Shown here one piece after another: positions 43,870-53,646 of a stretch of DNA of 64,000 nt. How positions within the stretch are numbered: position 1 is the first letter of the stretch; the number at the start of each line of letters is the position of its first letter. Position numbers and translations under genes: made by a program. The notes under the pieces are model-generated. The model did no database searches. It was not told the DNA's origin and saw only the letters and a list, made by a program, of their open reading frames with translations. This DNA comes from Paenibacillus sp. E222 (lineage in GTDB: Bacteria > Bacillota > Bacilli > Paenibacillales > Paenibacillaceae), in assembly GCF_013401555.1 (NCBI RefSeq), contig NZ_CP058552.1, positions 5,642,001 to 5,706,000 of the forward strand, written 5' to 3'.

Positions 43870-44163
43870 TTAAGTTAATTTTTGAGTCGTCATTGTTCTG
43901 AAACTTTGGATAAAAGGTTTGGGATCTATGTTGACCATATAAGGATAGACTCCGGTGCTGGTATGTAGATAGAAAAAACCACCTTCATTCCCCATTCTCC
44001 GAAAGGACATGTCGAACACTTCCGTAATATTAAACTCACGGTATTTCGTTACAATCTTGTCCGAGTACAGGATCATGGACCGATCGCTCTGCAGTATTTC
44101 CTGTGCGAGACCCGTCACTTCTCTCTGTACTTTGTAATATGGCAATACAGCAATGCAGTTCAT
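43870..44163 (-). CDS. Conserved hypothetical protein, 97 aa
   Basis: No named family is recognised. The product starts MNCIAVLPYYKVQREVTG, shows alternating hydrophobic strands, and ends GGFFYLHTSTGVYPYMVNIDP then FIQSFRTM, which look like a small PH-like or beta-rich fold; similar small proteins occur in Bacillus. ATG 44163 follows ACGGAGGGAG; the frame extends 26 codons upstream without a binding site. It is 87 bases after the saccharopine-dehydrogenase-like gene and 80 bases before the amidohydrolase, all on the same strand. Function unknown. Confidence 0.65.
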   Translation of the reverse strand: MNCIAVLPYYKVQREVTGLAQEILQSDRSMILYSDKIVTKYREFNITEVFDMSFRRMGNEGGFFYLHTSTGVYPYMVNIDPKPFIQSFRTMTTQKLT

Positions 44164-44250
44164 GATCTCCCTCCGTTCTAGCATGATTATTTGTTCCATC
44201 ATATCAGATCGGAGAGCCTGAGCAAAAAATGATCCAACCACATAGATGAT

Positions 44251-45348
44251 TTACGTGATCTTCGTTGTTACTCTCAATGGAAAACGAAGTGCTTCCTGAA
44301 TGTTCTGCAAGGACAGGCATTGTTCAATGTGGAAAACACCGTGCGGCAGTTCCGTCCGATACATTCGCTCCGCTACCGCCGCCGCAACTGCTGCTGTTGC
44401 ATCTGCTTCACGTTCGCCAATCAGCAGCTGCTCGACATGGACTGGTTTGCCCTTTTTCCATCCCATTGCATCTACCTTAACTGCAAACATCGGCTCCCCT
44501 CCGGGAATAACCCCAAATGCCTTGACCGTACCCTTACGAAGGGAGGGAATACGCAATAGTGAGAACAGACCAATACGTTTGAAGATGGCCATGGATCTGG
44601 TCATCCAACGGGAATCGAGACATAACCTGGTGGACACCGTTGGAATACGAAGTGTACGAGCAACGACGTGTTGATCCGAAAAGTTAAACCGATACGCTTT
44701 CCTGCGGCCCAGGTCTGCGCCAAAATCAATCCATTTACCATCGTGAAAACTTACCACTTCGGCTGGCTTGCCCTTTTTCATAACCTGATAGGCAGCATTC
44801 ATCTGATCCACAGTCCACTCCACCGCGGCTTTTCCGTGTTTCTCACCCAGTCCCAACATGACAGTGATGTCCGCTTCGTCCACTTGGTCCATATGGGTAC
44901 CTGCTTCACGCACAAGCAGATTGGTCATACCAGGCGACAGTCCCACACTGAGCATCGCTGTTGCTTTGGAACGCTGCATTTTGGAATGCAGCCGTTCGAC
45001 CTGACCCAGAAAATCATAATTGGCCGAAATATCGATATAATCTGTCCCTGCTTTCGCACAAGCCTCGACAAATCGGGTATCTGTCTGGTCCACACACATG
45101 ATCACCAGCTTGACTGATTGAAGCATACCAGGATTAATGGCTTTTCGTACATCCAATTGAAGCGGCTGGACTATACCACCCGTAGATCGGCTGAATTCCT
45201 CAGCCCGGTTCATCCGTGTACCTGCCGCCCATACCTTGCCGGGAAACGAGCGTCCCAATTGCGTACATATCATTTGCCCCACCTGACCATATCCGCCAAC
45301 AACCCAAATCTGGTCTTTCACAGACTCTATTTTAGTTTCGTTTCGCAT
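44251..45348 (-). CDS. Saccharopine dehydrogenase-like NAD(P)-binding protein
   Basis: This 365-residue protein of the saccharopine dehydrogenase NADP-binding family opens with a Rossmann motif, WVVGGYGQVGQMIC (about 15-28), and has ACAKAGTDYIDISANYDF and LSVGLSPGMTNLLVREAG, both characteristic. The C-terminal catalytic region differs from true lysine-pathway enzymes and is shorter. Activity cannot be assigned; relatives act on amino acids, polyamines or lipids. ATG 45348 follows GGAGGGATATT and overlaps the methyltransferase gene by 17 bases, implying coupled expression. Confidence 0.82.
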   Translation of the reverse strand: MRNETKIESVKDQIWVVGGYGQVGQMICTQLGRSFPGKVWAAGTRMNRAEEFSRSTGGIVQPLQLDVRKAINPGMLQSVKLVIMCVDQTDTRFVEACAKAGTDYIDISANYDFLGQVERLHSKMQRSKATAMLSVGLSPGMTNLLVREAGTHMDQVDEADITVMLGLGEKHGKAAVEWTVDQMNAAYQVMKKGKPAEVVSFHDGKWIDFGADLGRRKAYRFNFSDQHVVARTLRIPTVSTRLCLDSRWMTRSMAIFKRIGLFSLLRIPSLRKGTVKAFGVIPGGEPMFAVKVDAMGWKKGKPVHVEQLLIGEREADATAAVAAAVAERMYRTELPHGVFHIEQCLSLQNIQEALRFPLRVTTKIT

Positions 45349-46039
45349 AATATCCCTCCACCCAGAATGCTCCGAAATAACATGTAATGTGCGAGAATCC
45401 GCATTCTTTCATCAGCTCTACCATTTGTTCAGATGAGATGGGATCCGACTCTCGGCCTAGGGAAGCTGCAAACCGCTCCCATTCATCAGGCTGAATGCCA
45501 CTACTTAACATGTGATCCTGCCAGGCTTGCATCATGGTTGGATATACAGGCGAATGAAGATCGGCATTCACTGCCGCAATAATGAGTGGCGCTCCAGGCT
45601 TAAGTCTGGCCGCAAGGTTGGACAGGAACCGTCTTTTGGACTCGATCCCCTGAATAAAATGCAGCATTAGCATGCTTGTCGCCCCGTCGTATACAGCCTC
45701 TTCCGGCAACGCTTCAAGCGTCATGGATTTAAGTTGCACTCTGGCGTCGACTCCCGCTTTCTGGACTCTTCTCTCTGTTAACTGAAGCATTGGCTGAGAA
45801 GGATCTACTCCGGTAAACGTCCATCTCTTATGGCGAGAACCAAGCAGAGCTATTTCCTTACCTCCACCGGCTCCGACAATTAGTATTTTAGCTTCGTTGT
45901 TATCCGTGATAGAAGCGGCAAGCAGCCGCTCCATCAGATCATGCATATGAGAATAACCCGGAATTTTCAGGGCTATCGATTGTTCATAACGGTTTTCATC
46001 CGCCGTATCCCAGCTCATAGGTGGTTGATTGTGGTCCAT
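45332..46039 (-). CDS. Class I SAM-dependent methyltransferase
   Basis: This 235-residue methyltransferase has the SAM-binding motif I ILIVGAGGGKEIALLG (about 52-67), acidic loop FTGVDPSQPML and motif IV-like YDGATSMLMLHFI. The target is unknown; it resembles UbiE/tellurite-type small-molecule methyltransferases more than RNA or protein enzymes. ATG 46039 follows GAGGAG. It is first of a probable operon (methyltransferase, saccharopine-dehydrogenase-like, 97-aa protein, amidohydrolase), divergent from a LuxR regulator 132 bases away. Confidence 0.85.
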   Translation of the reverse strand: MDHNQPPMSWDTADENRYEQSIALKIPGYSHMHDLMERLLAASITDNNEAKILIVGAGGGKEIALLGSRHKRWTFTGVDPSQPMLQLTERRVQKAGVDARVQLKSMTLEALPEEAVYDGATSMLMLHFIQGIESKRRFLSNLAARLKPGAPLIIAAVNADLHSPVYPTMMQAWQDHMLSSGIQPDEWERFAASLGRESDPISSEQMVELMKECGFSHITCYFGAFWVEGYYAKRN

Positions 46040-46170
46040 TGATACTACACTCCTCGTGAATTCAAGTTAGACTTGACTCTTCGTTCGTCTAATTTCATTA
46101 TAAAAGGATACGCAGAGCGTACAATCCCAGAACAATGGGATATCTGCATGAGGAGAGGAGAGAGAGCTTT

Positions 46171-47286
46171 ATGACATCACGTATGGAACGGAACCAGCGA
46201 CTCATTACTTCTCTCGAAAAAGGAACCTGGACCTCTCGCACCTACCGGGAAGCTGTACTGAAACAAATTCAGAATATCGTTCCCTATGACGCGTATTGCT
46301 TCACAACAGTTGATCCACAGACTCTTCTCTCAACAGGTGCCGTGACGGAAGACGGCATTGAAGCCGTTCATGACCGGCTGTTCGTTAATGAATACATGGA
46401 AGAAGACATACATAAGTATGCTGATTTGATTCACAGCGGCGACTATACAGCGATCCTTCATGCATCGATAAGCGAAAACCCTGTATCAAGCGTTCGATAT
46501 CATAACATCCTTCAACCAGCAGGTTTCGGTGATGAACTTCGAGCTGTACTGGTCAGTGCCGGAGCCTGTTGGGGGTATCTAACCTTATATCGCAGGACGG
46601 AAGAACCCGTATTCACGGAGGAGGAGCGACTGAGCATTCAGGCTTGGACACCTTCTATTGCATTGATGTTACGATCCACAAGTCTGACTCTTCTGGACGA
46701 GATGAAGAGCGGAAGTCCCTCGGACCCAGGTATTATGATCACATCGGACGCTTTCGAGCTGTTATCCGTGAACGCTCCCGCTCAATATTGGCTATCGCAA
46801 TTACGTTTACTGGAGCATGTGGGACCAGATGTATTGCCACGTCCAGTCCGTGCTGTAAGTTCGCATTTACAGCGTCAGATTCGTACAGATTCCGATTTGA
46901 TGGTTGTGCAAGAACCTATCCTTCATTCGCCTTCCAAAGTCTGCATTCAACTCCTGGATGGTCGTTACCTTGTGCTTCATGCCAGCCGTATGCAACAGCT
47001 TTCAGGTCCAGATCAGATTGCGATCAGGCTTGAACAGGCTATGCCACAGGACTTGCTGCCTTTACTCGCCGAGAGTCATGGGTTGTCCATTCGGGAACGG
47101 GAGTTGTTAGGTTACGTGCTGCGCAGCTATTCTTCCAAAGAAATTGCTGAAGCAATGCATATATCAGCCTACACGGTACAGGATCATTTAAAATCCATTT
47201 TTGCCAAAACAAACGTATCCTCCCGCCGTGAGTTAATCTGGTATTTTGTATCCCGTTTCCAGTTGTCTGATGAGCCGGCAATTTGA
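46171..47286 (+). CDS. LuxR family transcriptional regulator
   Basis: This 371-residue regulator has an N-terminal GAF/PAS-like region (about 1-290) and a C-terminal LuxR helix-turn-helix (about 305-365): LSIRERELLGYVLRSYSSKEIAEAM then VQDHLKSIFAKTNVSSRREL, with all the usual positions (each given here in part). It is not an AHL receptor; similar proteins are stand-alone GAF-LuxR regulators of unknown ligand. ATG 46171 follows a purine-rich GAGGAGAGGAG stretch; the frame opens 12 codons earlier. It is divergent from the methyltransferase operon, its likely target. Confidence 0.85.
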   Translation: MTSRMERNQRLITSLEKGTWTSRTYREAVLKQIQNIVPYDAYCFTTVDPQTLLSTGAVTEDGIEAVHDRLFVNEYMEEDIHKYADLIHSGDYTAILHASISENPVSSVRYHNILQPAGFGDELRAVLVSAGACWGYLTLYRRTEEPVFTEEERLSIQAWTPSIALMLRSTSLTLLDEMKSGSPSDPGIMITSDAFELLSVNAPAQYWLSQLRLLEHVGPDVLPRPVRAVSSHLQRQIRTDSDLMVVQEPILHSPSKVCIQLLDGRYLVLHASRMQQLSGPDQIAIRLEQAMPQDLLPLLAESHGLSIRERELLGYVLRSYSSKEIAEAMHISAYTVQDHLKSIFAKTNVSSRRELIWYFVSRFQLSDEPAI

Positions 47287-47308
47287 ATGTTATAACCTGG
47301 ACATACAA

Positions 47309-47342
47309 AAAGATGCCTTGTCCCATGGGACAAGGCATCTTT
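47309..47342. terminator. Bidirectional terminator between luxR-type gene and yidC
   Basis: AAAGATGCCTTGTCCC and its perfect complement form a 16-bp stem between convergent genes. The T-run is better on the minus strand (yidC side). Confidence 0.85.
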
Positions 47343-47430
47343 GCGCTGCATGATGGTGAAGAACATCCGTTATATCAACACATACTTTAAATTTATATGA
47401 TTCTAGTGCACCAATCTCATGAGTGAAAAC

Positions 47431-48297
47431 TTAGGACTTAGCGGGCTTCGCAGGTTTGATGTTTTTGTTCTTTACCTCTACAGCCACGGGCTCTTGCGGA
47501 TGTTCTACCGGATACAATTTGCGGAACAATAACGTCTGCAAGACCAGGAATGAACCGCCGATCGTCCAATACAGCGGCATCGCTGCAGGTGCGGAAAGCG
47601 AGAAAAAGGCCATCATCAATGGAGAGATATATCCCATGATTGCGAATTGTTTTCGCTGTTCCGGCGCCATATTGGCTTGTGAAACTTTGGCTTGAATCAG
47701 ATAAATAATAGCTACCACGACTGCAAGCACATAGTCCGGCGCTCCTAATTTGAACCACAGAAAGGAGTGGGATGACAACTCCGGCGTAAGCCGGATAGCC
47801 GTGTAGATACCTGACAGAATGGGCAATTGAATCAGCAGTGGTAAGCATCCGATATTCAGCGGATTGAACTTGTGCTTCTTGTACAGCTCCATCGTTTCCT
47901 GTGAAAGCTTCTGCTTATCAGCTGGGTCGTTTTTGCCCTCATACTTTTTCTTGAGCGCATCCATCTCCGGCTTCATAGCATTCATGATCACTCGGGTACC
48001 CTGCTGAGATTTTGCTTGTCGCATCATCAATGGCAACAACGCAAGACGGATAACGAGGGTGATCACAATAATAGCTACCCCATAACTTCCATTAAATATC
48101 GTTGCGATGTGCTGAATGAGATACGACAGTGGAAATACAACATAATGGTTAAAGAACCCTGGTGTTGATGAATTAATCTCTGAGACGTTGTTACTGCATC
48201 CAGCCAGTAGCATAACTGCAAATAGAATTGCAATCAGGCCATAGATCCGTCCCTTGCCAGATGTAAAAGTGAACCCCTTGCTTGTCTTATGTTCCAT
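47431..48297 (-). CDS. yidC: Lipoprotein membrane protein insertase YidC/Oxa1
   Basis: This essential-type insertase places membrane proteins into the bilayer. It has 288 residues. A signal peptide with lipobox LLAGC (Cys 34) is followed by the five-helix YidC core (about 60-265). The conserved groove Arg is in ITLVIRLALLPL, with the cytoplasmic hairpin AMKPEMDALKKKYEG and the NPLNIGCLPLLIQLPIL helix. The basic tail ends KPAKPAKS. ATG 48297 follows AGGAGG by 6 bases; the binding site is half buried in a perfect stem-loop, and an upstream leader ORF runs through it. It is not next to rnpA/oriC, so it is probably the accessory, regulated copy, like B. subtilis YidC2. Confidence 0.92.
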   Translation of the reverse strand: MEHKTSKGFTFTSGKGRIYGLIAILFAVMLLAGCSNNVSEINSSTPGFFNHYVVFPLSYLIQHIATIFNGSYGVAIIVITLVIRLALLPLMMRQAKSQQGTRVIMNAMKPEMDALKKKYEGKNDPADKQKLSQETMELYKKHKFNPLNIGCLPLLIQLPILSGIYTAIRLTPELSSHSFLWFKLGAPDYVLAVVVAIIYLIQAKVSQANMAPEQRKQFAIMGYISPLMMAFFSLSAPAAMPLYWTIGGSFLVLQTLLFRKLYPVEHPQEPVAVEVKNKNIKPAKPAKS

Positions 48298-48584
48298 ATA
48301 TATCCTCCTCGTTGATTTGTAGAACGTACATTCAACGAGGAATGGCAATCTGGTTCATCTTCATCCGGGGATTCTCTTCGTCTGACGATTCGACTTAAAG
48401 CTTCAGGTCTGTGTTGTCCGTCCAAAGACAAGGTTGGCAATCCAGGTTCCAGACCACCTCCGGCGCCACCTTCCATCCAGTACTCTGTAATGCCGCAATG
48501 CAGATGGGCAATATACGCGTAACTGACTGTGAAAATGAGTCCGAGTGAAAATATATACGGTATCAATTCCTGAAGTTCAAACAA
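48234..48584 (-). CDS. Leader ORF upstream of and overlapping yidC (candidate arrest peptide, MifM-like)
   Basis: This 116-codon ORF starts at TTG 48584, eight bases after GGGGG, and ends 64 bases inside yidC. Residues 8-29 form one hydrophobic membrane segment (IPYIFSLGLIFTVSYAYI and on). A Gly-rich linker 39-44 follows, then basic RIVRRR (65-70) and acidic ESPDEDEPD (71-79). In B. subtilis, MifM lies at the same place before yidC2: it is a single-TM nascent chain with a RI..W motif and an acidic DEEDEED run, where translation pauses when insertion fails. I see analogous order but no clear identity. The last 37 residues overlap yidC and look unconstrained. Possible alternative: chance ORF. 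Confidence 0.6.
   Translation of the reverse strand: MFELQELIPYIFSLGLIFTVSYAYIAHLHCGITEYWMEGGAGGGLEPGLPTLSLDGQHRPEALSRIVRRRESPDEDEPDCHSSLNVRSTNQRGGYIWNIRQARGSLLHLARDGSMA
48303..48341 (-). promoter_or_regulatory. Stem-loop masking the yidC ribosome binding site
   Basis: TCCTCGTTGA (minus strand 48341-48332) pairs perfectly with TCAACGAGGA (48315-48306) around a 16-base loop. The second arm contains the first four bases of AGGAGG (48309-48304). The stem begins at leader codon 82, just after the acidic run ending at residue 79. A ribosome with its P site near codons 76-80 would open it, exposing the site. Confidence 0.7.
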
Positions 48585-48616
48585 GGGATTCACCCCCTTT
48601 ATAGGTTAGTTTTTAT

Positions 48617-48622
48617 AGTATA
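48617..48622 (-). promoter_or_regulatory. Candidate -10 of the leader-yidC transcript
   Basis: TATACT on the minus strand lies about 33 bases before the leader TTG; no convincing -35 is seen upstream. Confidence 0.3.
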
Positions 48623-48676
48623 ACACTTACATATTGATTTTGCATAAATTCATTGCTGGAAAACAGGTAGATGGAT

Positions 48677-50323
48677 TCATTCCCTTCTCAATTTGGACAA
48701 TTCTAGCTGTGCTCTATGTCTCGCCGTATTAAAAGAAGCCCACGAACTGTCTGTTTCATCCAGGACGAAGCTCGCTTGACGCTCCAGCATTTCCCCTTTC
48801 AAATCCGGGTACTCTCTCTCAGCAAACTCTCGCAGTAGCGGAACGGCATCAGCAGATAAACTCGCCAAGTAGGATGCATCAATATGGCCTGTCTGATGAT
48901 ATCGTTTAATATTAAGCTCTGCAATCCGATTATCCATACCCACATAGTTGACAATCACATAGGCTGCAAGGGATAGTACGATATAGCAGCGGATCAACGG
49001 CATAGACGTATAACGAATTCGAAGAGCGGCAATAAGCAGAAGCAGCGCCAAAAAAATCATAAATGCATGTACGAGAAATCGAATGTAGGTATAACCATAA
49101 GCCTGTTCATACAGGTTGAGGCGTATAAACGCCGAGTACAGCATGATTGCGGAACAACTCACCAGGACAAAGAGCAGCACCTGATGCACAACAGAACCTA
49201 TTTTGCCGCTTGAACGCGTGAACTGAAGGGAGATGATCAGGATGAAAAAATTAATGCCTGTTACCAGTATCAGCTCCACAAATCCACTTCTTGCATACTC
49301 CGCGTAGGACAAGTCTGACGGAAGATGCCCCTCACCCGCCCCAAAAAGATAAGAAAATTGTACAAGCACAAACAGAACATATAAACAGTTGATAACCAAC
49401 AGCATCGTGCCCACAATGATGGGGTCCAATCTTATAGGTTCACGATGAACTTGAGTAGAGATCGTCTCAGGTGAGATCTTATTTGCTGTCTGACCCTCTA
49501 TCATTGAGTTCGAGGAAGGATTCTCATGTATGGAATTCACGGAAACGTCTTCTCGCTCTTCGATTTCTGAAGCAACCGTAATTGCTTTTCCATTTTTCCA
49601 ATGTGCATTTTCTCTTTTCTCCGCTTCATATTGCATCGGCTGTACGAATCCCCATACGTAACTGAACAATAAAACGCCCGCGATGAGAATCCAGATCACT
49701 CTCGGAAAACCTGGTGTTAGTGTCAGTTGATTTAACCATACCGGAAAACCGGATAAATACTGATTAAAAATCCCATCTGCTGAGGAGAGCAGTGCTACGA
49801 CCACGATGAGAATGGGAACGGATGCTATAAGGCCAATGAGTACTTTGAAGGCAACCGTTTTCTGCGTTTTACCTAACCCTCGTCCTCCTGTTTTCATAAC
49901 AATGCTGGCGACCGTTCCCCAATGACGGATGGATTGTGGCAGCAAATGGTCCATAGCGGTACCGATCAATCCAATGTCCCACCATTGTCTCTGTTTTCTG
50001 CCAACCAGATAAGTCATATGTAAGATAATAAGGCCCGGTATGACCAGAAAATTAAGGATACGCAGCGGTTCATTGTCGTATAACAGAAACGTCAGCGCCA
50101 GCATCAGCACCACTCCAGCCATAAAAGCATCAATGATGGACAATGGCCGCAAGCGGTCCCTGGCAAATAAGAACATAAAGCCATAAAAAAGGATAACAAA
50201 GATGGGATAAGAAACGCCAACCTCCTTGCCATAGAACAAATACTGATGAATGATAGCTAACATTAATGCGGATAGTAGCGTAATTAAAGCGCGGTTGGGT
50301 GAAGCCATTATTTTATCAATCAT
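48677..50323 (-). CDS. DUF4153/DUF4173-type polytopic membrane protein
   Basis: This 548-residue integral membrane protein has about eleven hydrophobic segments and a central polar insert (about 260-310, rich in Glu/Ser). LLSSADGIFNQYLSGF and TGINFFILIISLQ are typical of the DUF4153 family. The C-terminal 100 residues are soluble and contain the family segment NRIAELNIKRYHQTGHIDASYL, given here only in part. ATG 50323 follows GGAGG by 8 bases; the longer frame lacks a binding site. It is divergent from an SgrR-like regulator. Function unknown. Confidence 0.8.
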   Translation of the reverse strand: MIDKIMASPNRALITLLSALMLAIIHQYLFYGKEVGVSYPIFVILFYGFMFLFARDRLRPLSIIDAFMAGVVLMLALTFLLYDNEPLRILNFLVIPGLIILHMTYLVGRKQRQWWDIGLIGTAMDHLLPQSIRHWGTVASIVMKTGGRGLGKTQKTVAFKVLIGLIASVPILIVVVALLSSADGIFNQYLSGFPVWLNQLTLTPGFPRVIWILIAGVLLFSYVWGFVQPMQYEAEKRENAHWKNGKAITVASEIEEREDVSVNSIHENPSSNSMIEGQTANKISPETISTQVHREPIRLDPIIVGTMLLVINCLYVLFVLVQFSYLFGAGEGHLPSDLSYAEYARSGFVELILVTGINFFILIISLQFTRSSGKIGSVVHQVLLFVLVSCSAIMLYSAFIRLNLYEQAYGYTYIRFLVHAFMIFLALLLLIAALRIRYTSMPLIRCYIVLSLAAYVIVNYVGMDNRIAELNIKRYHQTGHIDASYLASLSADAVPLLREFAEREYPDLKGEMLERQASFVLDETDSSWASFNTARHRAQLELSKLRRE

Positions 50324-50456
50324 GGGAAAAACCTCCATTAACTTTCTAGACTTCATTCTAGATGATAAAATAAGAATATAAATAGAAATTAAAAACGATA
50401 AAACTTCTTATTTTATTATATTGTGTCAGCTACAACCTCCAGGAGGGATCAAAACC

Positions 50457-52235
50457 TTGAAATTACATCAGCAATATTTGCTGCTTCATAGCCGGTTTGG
50501 TCACATGTTAGAACATGAAGTAACGCTCTCTGACCTCGCCGAACTGCTCGATTGTACACACCGTAACACGTTAACGATCGTCAAAAAAATGGTTGCCCAC
50601 GAATGGATTCGGTGGGTGTCCCAGCGCGGACGTGGACGGCGTTCTACGCTGACCCTGCTTGTTCCGGCTGATCAAATTGCAGCTGCATACATGATGCAGG
50701 CCATGAATCGCCGCGAGTTGCAGCAAGCTGCTGAACAGGTTGGTGCTTTCTCCAGTTCTACAACAATGCAGGATCACCTGAACAAGTGGCTGCTTGGATA
50801 TTCTGGACACCATACAGAAGCTGGCAGCCATAATGAGCGAATTGATACGCTCAGGTTACCGATCCGCCAACAGCTGCATGCCCTTGATCCGCTTTATATC
50901 AATTTGCTGGCTGAATCTTTTGTCACCAGTCATGTGTTCGACGGGCTGGTTCAACGTAATGAACATGGTGAGATTGTTCCCTGTCTGTCCCACACCTGGG
51001 ATGTCAGTTCAGATCGGAAGACATGGTTTTTTTATTTGCGTAAAGGGATTACTTTTCACAATGGACATCTGCTGACAGCCTCAGATGTGGTGTATACATT
51101 TGAACGACTGCAATCCTCAGAACGACGGACATTATACCGCGATGTGAGCAAACAGATTCTATCGATTGAAGCAGCAGATCCCTTGACCGTTTGTTTCAAG
51201 CTTAAAGCCCATCACGAATTGTTTTTGCCCTTTCTTTCGACAAGCCGTGCGGCGATTGTTTCACAAGCCACGTTCGGGCAACATAAAGATGGAGACAATG
51301 AACCTGATCTACCGATTACCATGCCAAAGCCTGTAGGAACAGGCCCTTTCAAGGTCACAACCTGGGATAATCACCTGTGCAGACTTGAAGTTTTTCCGAT
51401 GTATTTTCAAGGCAGAGCCCATCTGGACCGGGTAGATATTCTACAAATTCCGTGGAGTGCCCCTGAACATTTGGATGAAAAGCAAGATATCGAATCTCCC
51501 TTCTTCCACCTTGTTCATAATCCATCCTCGTCTGAGGGTAGGGACTGGACACAGATTAGTGCAGGTGTGATGGTACGCAAATTAGTTACTTGTAATACGC
51601 AAAAAACCGGACCGCTAAGCGATCCGGGTGTAAGAGCACATGTTCAGGCGTGTATTACTAAATTGTATGTGAATGACATAAATGAAAGTAATGAAGGTGA
51701 TCCAGGAGATGCTGATAAACTGTTGATGAATGCAGAAGAATTGACTTATTTGTCTCAGCACCCTACTTTTGATCTACCTATACCCTTGCACATCACAACC
51801 ATTCCTCAGTATCGGATGGATGCTAGACGTTTGGCATCGTCATTGGAAATATACGGCTTCACATGTACTGTCCGCATTGGCACGATGGAGCAATTCAAAG
51901 GGAACCTGAGACTGGAATCCGATCTGATTCTCTTCTCCCTGATTCGGGACCGAGACGAAGAATTACGCAGATACGATCTCTATCTCACTTTATCTGAACA
52001 TCTGGAGGACTCTTCCAAGAAGAGTATACAAGAGATGCTGCAAACCGTTGTTGCTTCGCAAATATCTGCAGACCGAGCTGCCGAACTGGACCGGATTGAA
52101 CAATTTTTGGTGCAGCAGAGTTTATTGTTCCATTTAACTGAAAAACCTGTGGAGACTGCCTACCTGCCTTCCGTTCGTGGCCTCTCCTTCAACAGCCAGG
52201 GATGGGTAAACCTCAGGCACATCTGGTTCCCGTGA
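50457..52235 (+). CDS. SgrR-like regulator: HTH fused to solute-binding family 5 domain
   Basis: This 592-residue protein joins an SgrR-type winged helix (about 1-110; LSDLAELLDCTHRNTLTIVKKM) to an extracellular-solute-binding family 5 domain (about 125-590; RLPIRQQLHALDPLYINLL, HNGHLLTASDVVYTFERL, GTGPFKV). There is no signal peptide, so the binding domain works in the cytoplasm as a sensor, as in SgrR. B. subtilis and Paenibacillus have several, often near transporters. It starts at TTG 50457 after AGGAGGG. It is divergent from the DUF4153 gene, which may be its target. Ligand: a sugar phosphate or peptide by family analogy. Confidence 0.85.
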   Translation: MKLHQQYLLLHSRFGHMLEHEVTLSDLAELLDCTHRNTLTIVKKMVAHEWIRWVSQRGRGRRSTLTLLVPADQIAAAYMMQAMNRRELQQAAEQVGAFSSSTTMQDHLNKWLLGYSGHHTEAGSHNERIDTLRLPIRQQLHALDPLYINLLAESFVTSHVFDGLVQRNEHGEIVPCLSHTWDVSSDRKTWFFYLRKGITFHNGHLLTASDVVYTFERLQSSERRTLYRDVSKQILSIEAADPLTVCFKLKAHHELFLPFLSTSRAAIVSQATFGQHKDGDNEPDLPITMPKPVGTGPFKVTTWDNHLCRLEVFPMYFQGRAHLDRVDILQIPWSAPEHLDEKQDIESPFFHLVHNPSSSEGRDWTQISAGVMVRKLVTCNTQKTGPLSDPGVRAHVQACITKLYVNDINESNEGDPGDADKLLMNAEELTYLSQHPTFDLPIPLHITTIPQYRMDARRLASSLEIYGFTCTVRIGTMEQFKGNLRLESDLILFSLIRDRDEELRRYDLYLTLSEHLEDSSKKSIQEMLQTVVASQISADRAAELDRIEQFLVQQSLLFHLTEKPVETAYLPSVRGLSFNSQGWVNLRHIWFP

Positions 52236-52296
52236 ATAATCATTTAACGAGCATTACAATCCCTTCGTTTCAAGATGCGGTAATGATTTTGCATGC

Positions 52297-53646
52297 TTAT
52301 GAACTGGTCATTGGGTCGGCATCCACCTTCTGCCGTATTTTTTCATTTTTCTTGGGAATGGTATCCTTCCGACGGTACACACCGAGAAGTAAACCGAGCA
52401 TGGCATATTCGAAAAGCAGGTGATTTCCATATCCTATTAAAGGAAAAACAATGCTAAGAATTGGAGCCTTCCCGGTAGTCATCGCCAACGAATAGATGAT
52501 TTGCAACGCAAACATGGATGTGATACTGAAAATTATCATTCGACCGAAATCATCCCGAATGTGAGGAAGGATCTTCACCATACTGGCAACAAACCAGATG
52601 ATACCCACCAATAACAATATTCCGGCTGACCAGCCAAACACATCAATGAGCAGCACACCTGGGTAATCTAAATAACTCGTTTTAAACATGTCGAACGTTG
52701 TATCAATTCCATTCCCCCACCAGCCGGCTGATTGAATAATTTCAATAATGGAATTGTTGCTATAGCCACCGTAAGGGTCATCCTGAAGATTCAAAACGAC
52801 AGAAAGCCTCTTCAGGCGTCCGTATTGATCTGCAAAAAACAATAACAATACAAAAATACTTCCTGTTACAACAGCACCTAAGGCTGTATAAAGCCATTTT
52901 CGCGTGAGCCAGCCAAATAAAATAATGGACATTGTGCCAAACAGAAACATGCGAACCCAGTCCGACATTTGAAACAATAGCACTACAGGTAACGCTACCA
53001 GAGCAATGTAGGTCAATATGGATTGCATATTGCAGTTTGAACGAAGCTTGTCCTGCACAATTGCCCCTATGGCAAGTGGCAAAATCCACACTGAAGCAGT
53101 GGTAAGGTCTATTACAAATCCAAGTGGTGCAATCAGGAATCTGCTCATACCATAAAAATCCGTAGATATCATTGGATTAATCCACAAAAGGGCATTAAGC
53201 AGAATATAGATCCACCAAGCAGCTTTTTTCAACTTACGATAATCAAAGTAAATAAAGAACAACATCAACATTACACCTATAACGGTATACACCACATGCC
53301 CCCGATATAAGGACTGATACTTTTCATCTGCGACATTCGTCGTAAAAATCCATATCAGTAACAGGCTAGTTATAGACAAGCCAATTAATCCAACTAACAA
53401 CCCCCAATGCATACGATGACGATGCAATCTATGCATACTTTTGCCCACCACTGCAGGATCACCCATCTGCTCTATGGCGTATGCAGCTGCCTCTTCTTGG
53501 CTCAGTCCCTCTTGCTCCTTGTCCAACATCATTTCTTCCATGTGGTTGCCAAGCTCATCACGCAGATCAGTATGTACTTCACGTGCCTTAACCTGACTAC
53601 ACAGTTGATCAAGATAATGTTTAATCTTCTCATGTCGATCCGTCAT
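52297..53646 (-). CDS. FtsW/RodA/SpoVE-like SEDS protein with permease prefix domain
   Basis: This 449-residue protein has a soluble N-terminal permease-prefix (HAAS-like) domain at 1-80 (EEMMLDKEQEGLSQEEAAAYAIEQMGD, in part) and about ten membrane helices of the FtsW/RodA/SpoVE superfamily. SEDS proteins polymerise glycan strands. The segment IIQSAGWWGNGI fits the family; where RodA/FtsW have HTDF the present protein has YLDY, keeping the Asp but not the His-Thr. It may therefore be a divergent or inactive relative. ATG 53646 overlaps the PadR stop (ATGA) after GAGGGAGG. PadR probably controls it in cis. Confidence 0.8.
   Translation of the reverse strand: MTDRHEKIKHYLDQLCSQVKAREVHTDLRDELGNHMEEMMLDKEQEGLSQEEAAAYAIEQMGDPAVVGKSMHRLHRHRMHWGLLVGLIGLSITSLLLIWIFTTNVADEKYQSLYRGHVVYTVIGVMLMLFFIYFDYRKLKKAAWWIYILLNALLWINPMISTDFYGMSRFLIAPLGFVIDLTTASVWILPLAIGAIVQDKLRSNCNMQSILTYIALVALPVVLLFQMSDWVRMFLFGTMSIILFGWLTRKWLYTALGAVVTGSIFVLLLFFADQYGRLKRLSVVLNLQDDPYGGYSNNSIIEIIQSAGWWGNGIDTTFDMFKTSYLDYPGVLLIDVFGWSAGILLLVGIIWFVASMVKILPHIRDDFGRMIIFSITSMFALQIIYSLAMTTGKAPILSIVFPLIGYGNHLLFEYAMLGLLLGVYRRKDTIPKKNEKIRQKVDADPMTSS

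Follow-up and report, generated by a model that had tools for sequence, protein, structure and literature searches.

Three arrest peptides linked to yidC genes, namely MifM, ApcA and CliM, are described in a paper of May 2026 (PMC13183943). The MifM nascent chain stalls the ribosome with D89, A90, G91 and S92 in the P site, and the residues reported to act in this arrest are R69, I70, W73, I74, M80, N81 and the acidic run DEED at 86-89 (PMC4423224). CliM (uC_KYxIW) of the Clostridia is a YidC-monitoring arrest peptide encoded upstream of yidC2 (PMC13183943). The published MifM cluster comprises 572 sequences from 592 Firmicutes genomes, and its members were chosen by an acidic run, with a local charge of less than -0.3 over five residues between positions 70 and 100 (PMC10987492). 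The main text of that paper, which is the part considered here, does not name Paenibacillus, and a literature search for arrest peptides, MifM or YidC leader peptides in Paenibacillus returned nothing on the subject, as judged by titles.

In this study, we analysed a 64,000-nucleotide stretch of the genome of Paenibacillus sp. E222 (hereafter the window), in which a short open reading frame precedes and overlaps a yidC gene (Table 1). The data make it very likely that this frame is a MifM-type, YidC-monitoring leader with a putative arrest sequence, which controls the translation of yidC2. Other genomes and loci are given by our G and L numbers.

Table 1. Features of the leader-yidC2 locus, in positions of the window
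Feature	Position	Strand	Basis or remark
Extended -10 promoter-like element, TGTTATACT	48617..48625	minus	conserved in same-genus loci
Leader ribosome-binding site, AAAGGGGGTG	48591..48600	minus	sequence and same-genus loci
Leader ORF, TTG start, 116 codons	48234..48584	minus	residues 1-80 conserved; no protein-level conservation in 81-116
Transmembrane segment, about residues 7-28	48501..48566	minus	hydropathy, conservation
Putative arrest region, residues 62-80, ALSRIVRRRESPDEDEPDC	48345..48401	minus	codons 78-81 align with MifM D89-S92
Left arm of SD-masking stem, from leader codon 82, UCCUCGUUGA	48332..48341	minus	fold, covariation
Right arm of stem, UCAACGAGGA, overlaps the yidC SD	48306..48315	minus	fold, covariation
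yidC2 Shine-Dalgarno (SD), AGGAGG	48304..48309	minus	sequence, fold
yidC2, the genome's second YidC/OxaA insertase, 288 aa, PF02096	47431..48297	minus	

The leader opens with the TTG at 48584, behind a G-rich site as had been predicted, and is closed by the TGA at 48236-48234. Counting the stop codon, it ends 64 nt inside yidC2 (ATG at 48297), which agrees with the overlap claimed from the sequence at first reading. The TTG is the leader start in all 72 same-genus loci with an assigned start (L052 is without an assignment). Upstream, an extended -10 site is kept in 64 of 72 same-genus loci, in the forms TGTTATAAT (35 loci), TGCTATAAT (19), TGTTATACT (8) and TGGTACAAT (2), and therefore leader and yidC2 probably have their own promoter at this element. 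A consensus promoter scan found no promoter for leader-yidC2. Searches of positions 44000-53000 of the window against Rfam, and of three leaders against NCBIfam and Pfam, gave no match. The neighbours are a DUF4153 protein (48677-50356, minus strand) and an SgrR-like regulator with a solute-binding domain (50421-52235, plus strand), with a LuxR-type regulator (46135-47286, plus strand) beyond yidC2; no tie of these three window neighbours to the switch was seen.

The single membrane helix placed by the original prediction at residues 8-29 was recovered as the only hydrophobic segment of the leader, the best 19-residue Kyte-Doolittle window being 7-25 with a mean of 1.73. Its hydropathy is moderate in the group as a whole, as 24 of 132 leaders lie below 1.6 on this scale, and the best window lies away from the N-terminus in at least seven of the 132. 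The acidic N-terminus and the basic C-terminal side suggest an N-out/C-in orientation.

Non-conservation of residues 8-79 and a substitution pattern of non-coding DNA had both been named as observations that would speak against the leader. Our results point the other way, because the dN/dS over residues 1-80 is 0.073 (42 unique sequences from 44 close loci, L007-L050, leaving out L052 and L051 onwards), and the two other frames contain stops in 42 of 42 unique sequences. By part, the value is 0.032 for residues 1-30, 0.138 for the spacer 31-61 and 0.101 for residues 62-80. Judged by these patterns, the leader is a real gene element under selection. The predicted extent of 116 codons holds as an open frame, and its residues 1-80 are conserved, but the 36 residues after C80 are not: where leader and yidC2 overlap, the dN/dS is 2.43 in the leader frame vs 0.229 in the yidC frame, and therefore conservation at the protein level is lacking in the tail beyond C80. 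The leaders of L077-L079 cross the yidC SD in another frame. An in-frame TGA at leader codon 52 was observed in L052 (G043), with motif, stem and yidC still downstream; decay or a sequencing error would account for it, and the G043 assembly is fragmentary.

The leader was matched in 73 of 75 same-genus genomes, its own genome counted, and the two same-genus genomes without it (G014 and G074) have a single yidC each. A profile built from 25 leaders matched 206 of 394 genomes of the family, in 13 of 19 genera, at E up to 0.01. By these profile matches, the leader is spread across the Paenibacillaceae, beyond the source species. The genome studied here has two yidC genes, and the other copy lies in the order rnpA-yidC-jag-mnmE (names assigned from translations), which in terms of gene order is the primary spoIIIJ-type place. 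Across the family (386 genomes with yidC among 388 searched), the 25-leader profile matched 203 of 231 genomes with at least two yidC genes vs 3 of 155 with one, counts which ignore kinship; yidC duplication is closely followed by the leader switch. Among the three single-yidC genomes, G368 is 63% complete and G165 and G238 have weak leader matches. The other side comprises 28 two-yidC genomes without a match to this profile, at least five of which have a related leader or a match to a wider profile: G075 has a shorter related leader, and G161, G195, G213 and G251 have leaders matched by wider profiles.

A 10-bp stem three codons beyond the acidic stretch, covering half of the yidC ribosome-binding site, had also been predicted. 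This stem starts at codon 82, and its right arm takes in AGGA, four of the six bases of the yidC2 SD. The fold of 48360-48285 reaches -22.5 kcal/mol vs -11.6 +/- 2.9 in 200 shuffles (z -3.8), none of which was as low. Covariation was examined in 75 distinct 42-base pieces, which came from the 103 loci with the SD exactly 92 nt after W0 (the position aligned with MifM W73), out of 152 loci with an assigned SD. Across these pieces, 91.6% of the stem cells pair. The compensatory changes called for at first reading were found, with two-sided changes in seven of the ten pairs (64 cells vs a shuffled mean of 16.2, and none of 500 shuffles as high). When the partner was slid by 1-3 columns, 27-70% of the cells paired and the covariation score, 0.260 in the true register, did not exceed 0.074; the true register was the best among slides of -3 to +3. 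In the predicted fold from the motif to the yidC start, at least three SD bases are paired in 150 of 153 loci, and the three counted as unpaired are L126 and L140, with a misplaced SD, and L191, in which the SD was not found.

The block ahead of this stem reads R65-I-V-R-R-R70 and E71-S-P-D-E-D-E-P-D79, at the very residues given in the original prediction, then C80 and H81, with the stem from codon 82. Over 94 unique windows from 133 loci, the consensus of the region is L-x-R-x-V/I-K/R-R-K/R-E-A/S-P-D-x-D-x-x-D-C. Pro73 is invariant (94/94), C80 is present in 89 of the 94, and conservation of the motif ends there, one codon ahead of the stem. W is found at W0 in 26 of the 94. The near-invariant Cys at codon 80 is without counterpart in MifM or in the inspected intermediates described below; it may occupy the P or the A site in the putative stall. 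R-A-P-P and R-A-G-P, known from the RAPP/RQH arrest peptides, are absent from the leader motif, which has E-A/S-P-D-x-D instead, and the K-Y-x-I-W motif of CliM is absent from the leader consensus. Residues 74-78, DEDEP, have the local charge used to define the MifM cluster. Since the leader passes this charge test and connected-component clustering could reach it, Paenibacillus members may be present, unnamed, within the published 572 sequences (PMC10987492).

The relation to MifM was examined with a MifM sequence that is letter-for-letter identical in PDB 3j9w. A gap-free alignment places MifM W73 on A62 and D89 on P78, so that the MifM stall codons fall on leader codons 78-81, near the codons 76-80 proposed at first. 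Of the MifM arrest residues, at best I74 (as L63) and a portion of the acidic run are retained in the leader; leader R69/R70 stand in place of M80/N81, and MifM R69/I70/W73 are poorly kept. Direct profile comparison of 39 Paenibacillaceae leaders with eight MifM proteins gave a weak likeness (P 0.0048, probability 7%). A profile made from MifM alone matched 4 of 200 genomes of the class; three of these belong to one genus, and the fourth match is weak. With the Paenibacillaceae-only profile, matches at E up to 0.1 were obtained in 78 of 398 genomes of the class, and most of the weaker ones outside the family look like chance; the places outside the family that were inspected were those taken up as loci or matched again by the mixed profile described below. 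Among the matches of the Paenibacillaceae-only profile are also ORFs that precede yidC in other families of this class (L191, L192 and L197-L199). Further places were raised by a mixed profile that includes MifM, and six were inspected (G707, G471, G571, G659, G512 and G425). In five of the six, yidC lies downstream; G512 (L241), a weak match and the exception, was dropped, as no recognisable yidC adjoins it.

Nine intermediates were compared with both sides, two of them coming from the mixed profile only. As a group they gave P 3.8e-16 to the Paenibacillaceae and 1.4e-7 to MifM, and the seven matched by the Paenibacillaceae-only profile gave 1.8e-5 to MifM, the two MifM values being inflated because L237 and L240 had been picked by the profile that contains MifM. 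L237, one of the seven, has E 0.015 with the Paenibacillaceae-only profile and was singled out by the mixed one. A strict set, rebuilt with seven members and not including L237, gave P 5.4e-20 to the Paenibacillaceae and 1.9e-4, with a probability of 48%, to MifM; it aligns with MifM over the arrest region with the register unchanged. The arrest regions form a gap-free series, from the B. pumilus type (WISKVIRMKRSSNDDEDH) through L237 (WISKVIRRKVCPNDDGEE) and L240 (WILTCVRRKECPNDEDDH) to the Paenibacillaceae (WLARRIKRKEAPDGDSADC). In gap-free windows of 23 residues, L237 outscores all 55,497 decoys against both MifM sequences and against the L135 and L116 windows, and B. subtilis MifM against the leader of the present locus did no better than 597 of the 55,497 decoys.

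The intermediates match both sides and the direct likeness is weak, so the link to MifM is made by transitivity. These data suggest that the leader is likely, although not proven, to be a remote MifM homologue with a rewritten arrest sequence, linked through intermediates in other families of the Bacilli. The same working might also have arisen from a different ancestry, with an independent arrest peptide converging on the MifM layout, as is thought for ApcA and CliM. The weak direct comparison, the loss of M80/N81 and poor retention of R69/I70/W73, and a MifM link of only P 1.9e-4 once the best intermediate, L237, is set aside are in keeping with such convergence. We regard it as unlikely, as ORFs in the same position in other Bacilli families align gap-free to both sides over the arrest region, the strict set lies in the same MifM register, and the spacing of the stem agrees with that of the Bacillus-type mifM loci. 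The original prediction of MifM logic with a different arrest sequence is well supported as regards the membrane segment, the arrest-like sequence and the SD-masking stem, and is modified in that the leader is probably a remote MifM homologue, not an unrelated look-alike.

In the Paenibacillaceae, the SD starts 91-99 nt after W0 in 131 of 133 loci, exactly 92 nt in 103 of them, and the other two are the loci with a misplaced SD (L126 and L140). The distance from W73 to the SD is 86-90 nt in five distinct Bacillus-type mifM loci (G611, G691, G406, G543 and G457; L200 and L246 are one locus, hence five), and W0 to SD is 80-94 nt in the intermediates and relatives outside the core set. The arm that pairs with the SD starts at +60 in the five Bacillus-type loci and at +56 to +61 in 119 of 131 Paenibacillaceae loci. 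In 129 of these 131, the leader frame continues without a stop beyond the yidC start and ends 31-163 nt inside yidC (this overlap count and the clustering below leave out L126 and L140, in which the SD is misplaced); in the Bacillus-type loci, the first base of the leader stop codon lies 17-20 nt before the SD. After clustering at 70% identity, the frame is open in 42 of 44 clusters vs 32.9 +/- 2.8 (maximum 41, 500 runs) with the loop bases shuffled, which we read as mild selection for run-through, by which unstalled ribosomes would sweep the yidC2 start. The shorter leaders of L193, L195, L196 and L236, from the same family, stop ahead of the yidC SD as in the Bacillus mifM layout, and their motif is of the RWI-x-R...RR-R/K-x-APDEE/DED type.

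These observations are consistent with the following mechanism. The N-terminal helix of the leader peptide would enter the membrane with the help of YidC. When YidC capacity drops, the segment R-x-V/I-K/R-R-K/R-E-A/S-P-D-x-D-x-x-D-C would be held in the tunnel, and the ribosome would stall at about codons 78-81. The usual ribosome footprint reaches 15-17 nt, and with the P site at 78-81 the ribosome would thus extend to about codons 83-86, inside the arm beginning at codon 82. In the stalled state its leading edge would enter the left arm and hold the stem open, and yidC2 would be translated. Unstalled ribosomes would read on to the stop inside yidC2, and the yidC2 start would be occluded. Of these steps, the arrest and the codons at which it would occur, its release on insertion, and the additional blocking of the yidC2 start are our inference.

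The overlap of the leader with yidC and the masking of the SD by the stem would suit a plain translational coupling, of a sort that is common, in which translation of the leader by any ribosome is enough to open the stem and let yidC2 be read, with neither nascent-chain arrest nor sensing. This reading is quite improbable in our view. It leaves unexplained the conserved block that ends one codon short of the stem, the conserved membrane segment (dN/dS 0.03) and the likeness to MifM; moreover, a running ribosome would itself cover the yidC start, because the leader frame is open through that start in 129 of 131 loci. That the leader encodes a functional small membrane protein, for example a partner of YidC2 that happens to lie in its operon, would fit its conserved N-terminal membrane segment and coding pattern, but is very improbable given that the residues after C80 are unconserved and in some relatives cross the SD in another frame, that the conserved block lies at a narrow distance from stem and SD, and that the element occurs almost only with a second yidC.

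Returning to the YidC-monitoring arrest leader, a more specific form of it may be put forward tentatively, and we hold it to be possible but somewhat doubtful. The leader would descend from MifM and use a new arrest code, and its off state would have two parts. The motif would make contacts unlike those of MifM, most likely with Asp79 or Cys80 in the P site, and when insertion succeeds, run-through ribosomes would block initiation in addition to the stem. If true, this two-part off state would make a tighter switch than that of Bacillus mifM. The run-through layout provides a testable claim on how the off state is enforced.

Compared with the known systems, the locus is closest to MifM (YqzJ)-yidC2 (yqjG) of B. 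subtilis, in which likewise an ORF lies upstream of the second yidC and the primary yidC is located elsewhere. Both leaders have an N-terminal membrane segment (by hydropathy in the present leader) and an acidic run in the arrest region, and both are followed, a few codons past the acidic run, by an SD-masking stem, the SD lying 86-90 nt after W73 in the five Bacillus-type loci and 92 nt after the equivalent codon here. The leader differs from MifM in lacking M80/N81, in its D-x-D-x-x-D with the near-invariant Cys, in the K/R-R-K/R-E before the invariant Pro, and in running on into yidC, whereas Bacillus-type leaders stop before the SD. As a probable MifM relative with a different motif found across a family, it gives a natural series from Bacillus through the intermediates to the Paenibacillaceae, in which the rewriting of an arrest sequence under unchanged geometry and task can be studied. 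CliM shares with the leader the N-terminal membrane segment and a stem that masks the initiation site (PMC13183943), but it is set apart by its KYxIW motif, and it arrests at both elongation and termination. ApcA of the actinobacteria is similarly an arrest peptide encoded upstream of a presumed secondary yidC, but has an R-A-P-G-type motif, and the structure predictions given for it contain no SD-masking hairpin (PMC7897499).
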